A stretch of DNA of 64,000 bases from Dillenia suffruticosa (Eukaryota; Streptophyta; Magnoliopsida; Dilleniales; Dilleniaceae). This document shows, in pieces, positions 36,415 to 38,727 of this stretch. A model generated the notes under the pieces. That model was given only the letters and a program-made list of their open reading frames with translations, did not search any database and had not been told where the DNA came from. The stretch lies in contig JAVTVX010000031.1 of assembly GCA_033439265.1 (NCBI GenBank), forward strand, positions 13,615,001 through 13,679,000, read 5' to 3'. Made by a program: the position numbers and the translations under genes. Within the stretch, counting starts at the first letter, position 1, and the number at the start of each line of letters is the position of its first letter.

Positions 36415-38727
36415 ATGGCGGTGCCGCTGCTGTCGAAGAAGATCGTGAAGAAGAGAGTGAAGAAGTTCAAGAGGCCCCAGAGCGACCGCAAAGTCTCTGT
36501 CAAGGTATCACCCCAACATTTCCCTTTCGATTTTCCAATAACCCTTTAACTTTACTAGCTATAAGTTTCTCACATTCAGTTTTGATCTGTTCATTCTTTA
36601 AATCTGTAGTCCTTTATTATAAATTAAGGCTTAGTTTTAATAAGGGACGTGATGATGTGTATTGTCGCCCCAGTCTTACATGCATCCTTCTATCTTGGAT
36701 GCTATATGGTGATTGACATTCAATAAGCTGATCCCATTTATGTAGTTATTTTCTTGAAAATTTTAATGGGTTTCTTTTAATTTGTTCTATTTTCCCCTAT
36801 TTTTTCATGTAAAGTAATTAGGTTTGAGGATATTTAACATCTGGTTCTGGTCTTTGTTCTGTACTTGGAGAATAAGCTTATAATGATCTATTGGTGCTTA
36901 TTAGAACCTCTAAAAAATGATTGTATGATTGTATAAATTTCTACTTCATGGAATTGCTAAACTTGTTGGTTGTTTTGATTGAGGGATGTGATGATATAAG
37001 TAATGTCGCCCCAGTCTTACATGCATCTCATTGATGCTAAATGGAGATTGACATTTTATAAATCTAGCTGATCCCATTTTGATATTTCATACTTTCAAAA
37101 TTTTATTTTATTTTATTTTTTAATCTTTTTGCAGATGTGTTCTCCCTCCATCTGTATTATTGTTTTGCTATTGTAGTCTTTGTATGCAACAAGACATGAG
37201 GATATATCTACCCATCAATTACTGTACTCAAGTGATGAATCTTATAACATGCACTACCATCTGATCTTCGTTGTATACTCAGATTATAACCTTTTCATGT
37301 TTTCTTTAACTTATCAGTAATATACACCCCTTGTCTGTTTCCTGCATTCTTTGATGAAGAGATACAGCCACCGATCCACATGATTTATATATGTATTTGT
37401 CACCATTTCTTGTCTGAGATTGCAGTCAGCTTTTATATTGCAATTTAATACAAGTATATTTTAAAAATGTTTTTTGTTTCTGTTTTATTTTTCTGCATTT
37501 GAATGGGGAAGGAGGTATGATGATGTTTATCCAATTATTCTGCATTGGAATGATGAATACTAATACATGCACTACCATCTGATCTCTGTTTATTACCAAA
37601 TGGTAATGTATCTAACTGCTTAAGTATTTTTAAGGGTCCTATTATTTTCAAAGATTTTGATGTTTGCAACGTATTCTAATTTACTCAATATTAGTGCAGC
37701 TTGTCTGTGTATCTTTGATGGTATGAAATCAATGATGAAGACTATTTCTTGTTGCTGAGTTATAAGTGATTATCAAACAACTTTATCACCATCTTTCGGC
37801 TGAGATTTTTGCCATCATTATGCACTTAGCTATATATATATTTTTTTCTTCTTTTTATGCTTTTAAGTTATTACAAAGAAAAAAATATTACTCAGCTAAG
37901 GTACTTGCCCTCGGTATCTGATGTCCAGTCTAATATCGTAGCTGGGTGTCTCGTTTATGGGGCATAAAATAAGTTTTTACAGGTCTTGCGACACAGTTTG
38001 CTATATTTGTTGTAAGCTTACTGTTACTTAATCCCTGTTTACATCTTCAACTCTTACTACCTCCTTTTACCTCTTTTTTCATTCTTGTATCATGCCTGTT
38101 CCTTTTTTGTCTCTCTCCTCTCTTTCTCCCAAACATATTATGTTAGGTCATTCTATCTATAAATATTGGGCAAGGGTTATTATTTCTTTGCCAAGCTTAA
38201 TGTTCTGCACTCTTTCTCCCTTTCCCACATATCTTCTGTGTATGCATATCTATATCTATGTAGAGGCTAGATGGGTTTTGCTAGGTGGTCTAATGTTGTG
38301 TTCAATGCAATTTTCAACAGCCAAACTGGCGTAGACCAAAGGGTATTGATTCAAGAGTCCGCCGAAAGTTCAAAGGATGCACTCTTATGCCCAACATTGG
38401 TTATGGTTCTGACAAGAAGACTCGCCACTATCTTCCTAATGGGTTCAAGAAGTTTTTAGTGCACAACGTCAAGGAGCTTGAGCTATTGATGATGCACAAC
38501 AGGTAGCTGATCTTTTAGCTCTTAAAGCATTGCTTGGTCATTATTCCTTGAAAATGGAACTCAAGTGTATATTAACCCGTAACATCTTTCCTTCCAGGAC
38601 CTACTGTGCTGAGATTGCACACAATGTGTCCACAAAGAAGAGGAAGGAGATTGTAGAGCGTGCTGCCCAGCTTGATGTTGTTGTGACCAACAAGCTTGCC
38701 AGGTTGCGCAGCCAGGAAGACGAGTAG
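36415..38727 (+). CDS. RPL32: 60S ribosomal protein eL32
   Basis: A structural protein of the large cytosolic ribosomal subunit. Three exons (36415-36504, 38321-38502 and 38598-38727) with GT/AG introns total 402 nt and give 133 aa, the usual plant length. The protein begins [20 protein letters not shown] and contains [56 protein letters not shown] and the terminal RLRSQEDE, all near-identical to known plant eL32. Intron 1 is large (1816 bp) and carries six box C/D snoRNA candidates. A telo-box lies upstream. A small leader intron is possible: GTAAGC near 36316 and an acceptor AACCAG just before TGAAGAGATGG. It would remove an upstream ATG at about 36333. Confidence 0.98.
36644..36735 (+). 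ncRNA. Box C/D snoRNA candidate A (25S guide)
   Basis: Box C is GTGATGA (36649-36655) and box D is CTGA (36728-36731). The terminal stem is GGGA (36644-36647) with TCCC (36732-36735), giving a 92-nt RNA. An internal CTTA serves as box D', preceded by TGTCGCCCCAGT. That guide pairs with the 25S rRNA motif GCUGGGGCGGCA, allowing two G-U pairs. The fifth base from D' is the second G of GGGG, which by my recollection is the site of yeast Gm2619. The guide is kept unchanged in copy A' while the flanks differ, which argues for selection. Confidence 0.8.
36983..37075 (+). ncRNA. Box C/D snoRNA candidate A' (duplicate of A)
   Basis: Box C is GTGATGA (36988-36994) and box D is CTGA (37068-37071). The terminal stem GGGA/TCCC is at 36983-36986 and 37072-37075. 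The block TGTCGCCCCAGTCTTACATG is identical to candidate A, so the D' guide is the same. The sequence next to box D has diverged, so only the D' guide is likely to be in use. Confidence 0.8.
37187..37273 (+). ncRNA. Box C/D snoRNA candidate B (18S guide)
   Basis: Box C is the imperfect ATGAGGA (37196-37202), C' is GTGATGA (37232-37238) and box D is CTGA (37261-37264). The flanks CAACAAGA and TCTTCGTTG can pair with a bulge. The guide before box D, ACATGCACTACCAT, pairs with the 18S motif GUGGUGGUGCAUG over 13 bases with two G-U pairs. The D+5 base is the U before GG, which I recall as yeast Um1269 (guided by snR55) and human Um1326 (guided by U33). Confidence 0.68.
37342..37425 (+). ncRNA. 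Box C/D snoRNA candidate C
   Basis: Box C is TTGATGA (37351-37357), box D is CTGA (37414-37417), and the terminal stem is CTGCA (37342-37346) with TGCAG (37421-37425). It is related to candidate C' around TTTGTCACCATTTCTTGT before box D. The bases next to box D no longer match the 25S CCGAAAGAUGGUGA site that C' fits, so this copy may have a new target or be decaying. Confidence 0.6.
37511..37588 (+). ncRNA. Box C/D snoRNA candidate B' (duplicate of B)
   Basis: Box C is ATGATGA (37517-37523), D' is CTGC (37540-37543), C' is TGATGA (37551-37556) and box D is CTGA (37579-37582), in the canonical order. The D guide ACATGCACTACCAT is identical to that of B and gives the same 18S target by the D+5 rule. 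The terminal stem is short and weak (GGAG with CTCT). The box C here is better than in B. Confidence 0.8.
37726..37808 (+). ncRNA. Box C/D snoRNA candidate C' (25S guide)
   Basis: Box C is ATGATGA (37732-37738), D' is CTGA (37755-37758), C' is GTGATTA (37766-37772) and box D is CTGA (37800-37803). The terminal stem is AAATC (37726-37730) with GATTT (37804-37808). The guide TCACCATCTTTCGG is a perfect 14-base complement of the 25S motif CCGAAAGAUGGUGA. The D+5 base is the second A after CCG, which I recall as yeast Am807 (guided by snR39/snR59). Confidence 0.85.

Follow-up and report, generated by a model that had tools for sequence, protein, structure and literature searches.

Does the first intron of a plant ribosomal-protein gene carry a genuine set of small nucleolar RNAs (snoRNAs), and is that set still in use? 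The question is raised by a locus of Dillenia suffruticosa (assembly GCA_033439265.1), which we analyzed in a stretch of 64,000 nucleotides (nt) of contig JAVTVX010000031.1 (positions 13,615,001 to 13,679,000, forward strand). This stretch is referred to below as the window, and positions are counted from its first letter. The host gene is RPL32 (eL32), as the initial annotation had proposed; its coding region (36415..38727, +) has two introns with GT/AG borders, and the spliced exons (36415-36504, 38321-38502 and 38598-38727) encode 133 amino acids (aa) that match the Pfam profile PF01655, Ribosomal_L32e, with an E value of 1.9e-50. Intron 1 (36505..38320, +; 1816 nt) is the first intron of the coding region, and the 5′ untranslated region may hold another. 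It contains six C/D methylation-guide units and one H/ACA guide RNA, so that a complete ribosomal-protein gene holds several sense-oriented snoRNAs within one intron. We conclude that the intronic array is real and, as far as its sequence indicates, probably working. It is a fresh example of a known arrangement, limited in this genome to RPL32 copies, with one unit probably decaying.

All six C/D units that had been annotated are present where they were placed. Our scan confirmed the box motifs described for them: each unit has a box C (RUGAUGA) with at most one mismatch and a box D (CUGA) at a fitting distance, and each is closed by a terminal stem of at least five pairs, with one mismatch tolerated. 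Units A (36645..36734, +) and A′ (36984..37074, +) are C/D snoRNAs U31b, matching Rfam RF01285 with 72.7 and 65.8 bits (cut-off 37). The D′ guide of A spans 36659-36674, with box D′ CTTA at 36675, and that of A′ spans 37000-37015. Units B (37189..37270, +) and B′ (37510..37588, +) match RF00133 with 44.5 and 53.7 bits (cut-off 44), and units C (37343..37424, +) and C′ (37724..37810, +) match RF00134 with 27.6 and 59.8 bits (cut-off 55). Comparison with Rfam models thus bears out five of the six units at the gathering cut-offs and leaves unit C below. The inventory of six had missed an H/ACA snoRNA in the same intron, outside the region annotated. This unit, snoR5a (F1/F2; 37903..38046, +), matches RF00482 with 70.6 bits (cut-off 60) and folds into two hairpins (z −2.51). 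The matched sequence terminates in UUUACAUCU, with ACA three bases before the 3′ end.

The array stands well apart from chance expectation. A simple scan, which required CTGA and a length of 60-105 nt and tolerated up to one mismatch in box C and one in a stem of at least five pairs, identified exactly six D boxes in intron 1, and these are the D boxes of the six units. Among 300 first-order Markov sequences of intron composition, 220 gave no D box, 66 gave one and 14 gave two. When 70 tiles of 1816 nt were scanned on both strands, the array tile held six candidates, and the runners-up three and two. A tighter scan that demanded four ungapped stem pairs recovered five of the six units and lost C. 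The proposal of three kinds, each present twice, is upheld by alignment: identities are 75/97 columns for A/A′, 57/85 for B/B′ and 50/93 for C/C′, and each score exceeds those of all 300 shuffles. A weak likeness persists in the 90 nt flanking A and A′, where scores of 46 and 59 compare with means of 28 and 43 after shuffling (standard deviation ∼7); the flanks of the B and C duplicates showed none when scored against shuffles. One tile (56737-58552, −), in which the simple scan picked out three C/D-like candidates, has no Rfam match; it overlaps a 500-aa open frame, and its candidates are therefore probably due to chance.

Guide pairing was examined against pieces of ribosomal RNA (rRNA): a eukaryotic large-subunit (LSU) fragment (L001), two small-subunit (SSU) pieces (L002 and L003) and, as a stand-in, E. 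coli 23S (L009). The LSU piece is a 592-nt match (L001:3004-3595, −) in a 1.16-Mb contig named Mangrovicoccus ximenensis, and probably reflects contamination or a chimera. With CCGAAAGATGGTGA of the LSU fragment, the D guide of C′ forms 14 paired positions, its fifth nucleotide facing A. In B and B′, the D guide pairs with 18S GTGGTGGTGCATG and has its fifth nucleotide opposite U. For each of B, B′ and C′, none of 400 guide shuffles matched the observed score. In A and A′, the D′ guide pairs with E. coli 23S ACTGGGGCG, which we take to be the P-loop, and here the fifth nucleotide faces G.

Unit C is probably decaying. It still carries a box D, a box C with one mismatch and a terminal stem of 7 pairs, and its fold has a z of −2.17. 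Position 5 of its guide is a C facing A, a mismatch at the expected methylation position. In the available text on the Arabidopsis HID2 clusters, snoR4 is described as an orphan.

The snoRNA set was found in this genome only in RPL32 copies, namely that of the window and four others. The intron of copy L029 (L029:822-3821) is 3000 nt long; its array is duplicated internally, with ten snoRNA units above the Rfam cut-offs.

Five short snoRNA matches lie elsewhere in the genome, four to C′ and one to A′. Of the C′ fragments, L033 (C2:17256724) has an A-run and is bracketed by a direct repeat of 15 nt, L034 (C35:1429332) has an A-run without a repeat, L035 (C17:5151226) has a 14-nt direct repeat without an A-run, and L036 (C24:398949) has neither. 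The A′ fragment, L037 (C31:14472591), has a 19-nt direct repeat and a T-run at its end, a poor fit to an A-tail. The three repeats, candidate target-site duplications, are perfect, and none of 500 shuffles reached each; the opening bases of the L035 repeat could equally be snoRNA sequence. Three of the C′ fragments start at query nt 6 or 7, which places their starts 5 or 4 nt ahead of box C, and the fourth starts at nt 23. Mature C/D snoRNAs usually begin 4-5 nt upstream of box C. The far ends of all four C′ fragments fall at nt 59-64, within the A-rich stretch that follows box C′. This pattern resembles that of tailless and A-tailed retropseudogenes; if the fragments did arise by retroposition, the snoRNAs were transcribed and processed. 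As described in the available portion of PMC5322556, mammalian tailless retropseudogenes are 3′-truncated RNA copies with an A-rich end and target-site duplications, and the four C′ fragments share the truncation into an A-rich stretch, three of the five fragments having candidate duplications. In contrast to the mammalian copies, our fragments come from a plant and derive from C/D snoRNAs, A-runs are present in two of five, and the repeat is absent from two of five. The plant cases in the same portion number only eight, U2-derived and from maize. Among the papers listed by literature searches, judged by titles and abstract openings, none was recognized as a case of a retroposed plant snoRNA.

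Two other explanations of the array need to be weighed. The snoRNAs might be transcribed from a promoter of their own in or near the intron, independently of RPL32 splicing, as in the independent clusters of plants, and the title of one cited paper does mention splicing-independent processing in plants. However, the units are intronic and sense-oriented in all five RPL32 copies, each of which also has a telo motif in the 400 nt upstream of its ATG; in the window it is the telo box TAGGGTTT at 36231..36238 (+). A site II motif lies within the same distance in two of the five copies, that of the window being without one. We regard a separate promoter as unlikely.

Alternatively, the whole array could be a relic, consisting of pseudogenes of an old cluster that is silent in this copy. 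The decay of unit C, relics of A′ and B in L031 and L032, and damaged units in L029, L030 and L032 would fit such an origin. Several further results weigh against a working array or against the targets assigned to it. The Rfam margin of unit B is 0.5 bit, and U31b alone reaches its cut-off in L031 and L032. Among the unit copies elsewhere, the guide of 30b is changed twice, box D is altered in 30C2 and 29B2, and box C is broken in 32a. Shuffled guides equaled the observed score in 71 of 400 cases for A and 48 of 400 for A′ against the E. coli stand-in, and in 104 of 400 for unit C. Thus, of the three rRNA sites initially annotated, those of B, B′ and C′ are backed by pairing beyond chance, and that of A/A′ is within chance; because the A/A′ shuffles often score equally, the U31b target rests on its family and on Arabidopsis, not on the pairing test. 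Additionally, an earlier study found G2620 unaltered in hid2. Against a relic, spacers are less conserved than boxes and guides, in a comparison of a single pair, the window copy and L030, out of the four other copies. Unit B is 98.8% identical across 82 nt to two C12 copies, and the fragments elsewhere appear to have been retroposed from RNA. We consider a wholly silent array very improbable, and retain the reading of a real and probably working array.

The Arabidopsis HID2 clusters comprise snoR4, U31, snoR5, U33 and U51 and are described, in the text available, as two duplicated clusters. That text mentions no host intron, whereas the Dillenia set lies inside RPL32 introns; here, moreover, doublets occur within one array and no snoR4 was recognized. 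For U33, a further target site is 25S G3292. Intronic snoRNA clusters in ribosomal-protein genes are known from rice and rare in Arabidopsis, according to the accessible parts of PMC3022908 and PMC4660826, and the rice clusters in the former likewise combine intronic snoRNAs with an upstream telo box. Among the papers listed by literature searches, which covered rice incompletely, none described this set in an RPL32 intron of a plant, and we do not claim priority.

Elsewhere, the window holds a long open hAT-type transposase frame (17884-20118, −) and a second, fragmented relative (41264-42661, +), minisatellites at 20141-20532 and 40435-40759 that appear similar by eye, and pieces of a Ty3-type retrotransposon with gag, RNase H and integrase domains (25346-28531, −). 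Further frames match NdhN (51572-52141, +) and an Ole e 1-like protein (44619-44987, −).

Taken together, these results are compatible with a joint reading whose chances we judge evenly balanced. The HID2-type guide set would occur only in RPL32 introns, and this would tie methylation of the P-loop, the 18S site and 25S A816 to the output of one gene family. The snoRNAs would also be substrates for a long interspersed nuclear element (LINE)-type machinery, primed inside the RNA and yielding truncated copies with target-site duplications, and the mature 5′ end of C′ would be preserved in the copies, at 4 to 5 nt ahead of box C. Retroposition of this kind is known chiefly from mammals. On DNA evidence only, the fragments suggest that retroposition of plant snoRNAs is possible. 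Loss of this guide set in Arabidopsis (HID2) is described as causing growth and leaf defects; here the set is linked to one ribosomal-protein gene family, and the duplication and decay of such arrays can be followed within one genome. Where RPL32 genes are duplicated, what is retained may be the intron and not the protein alone.
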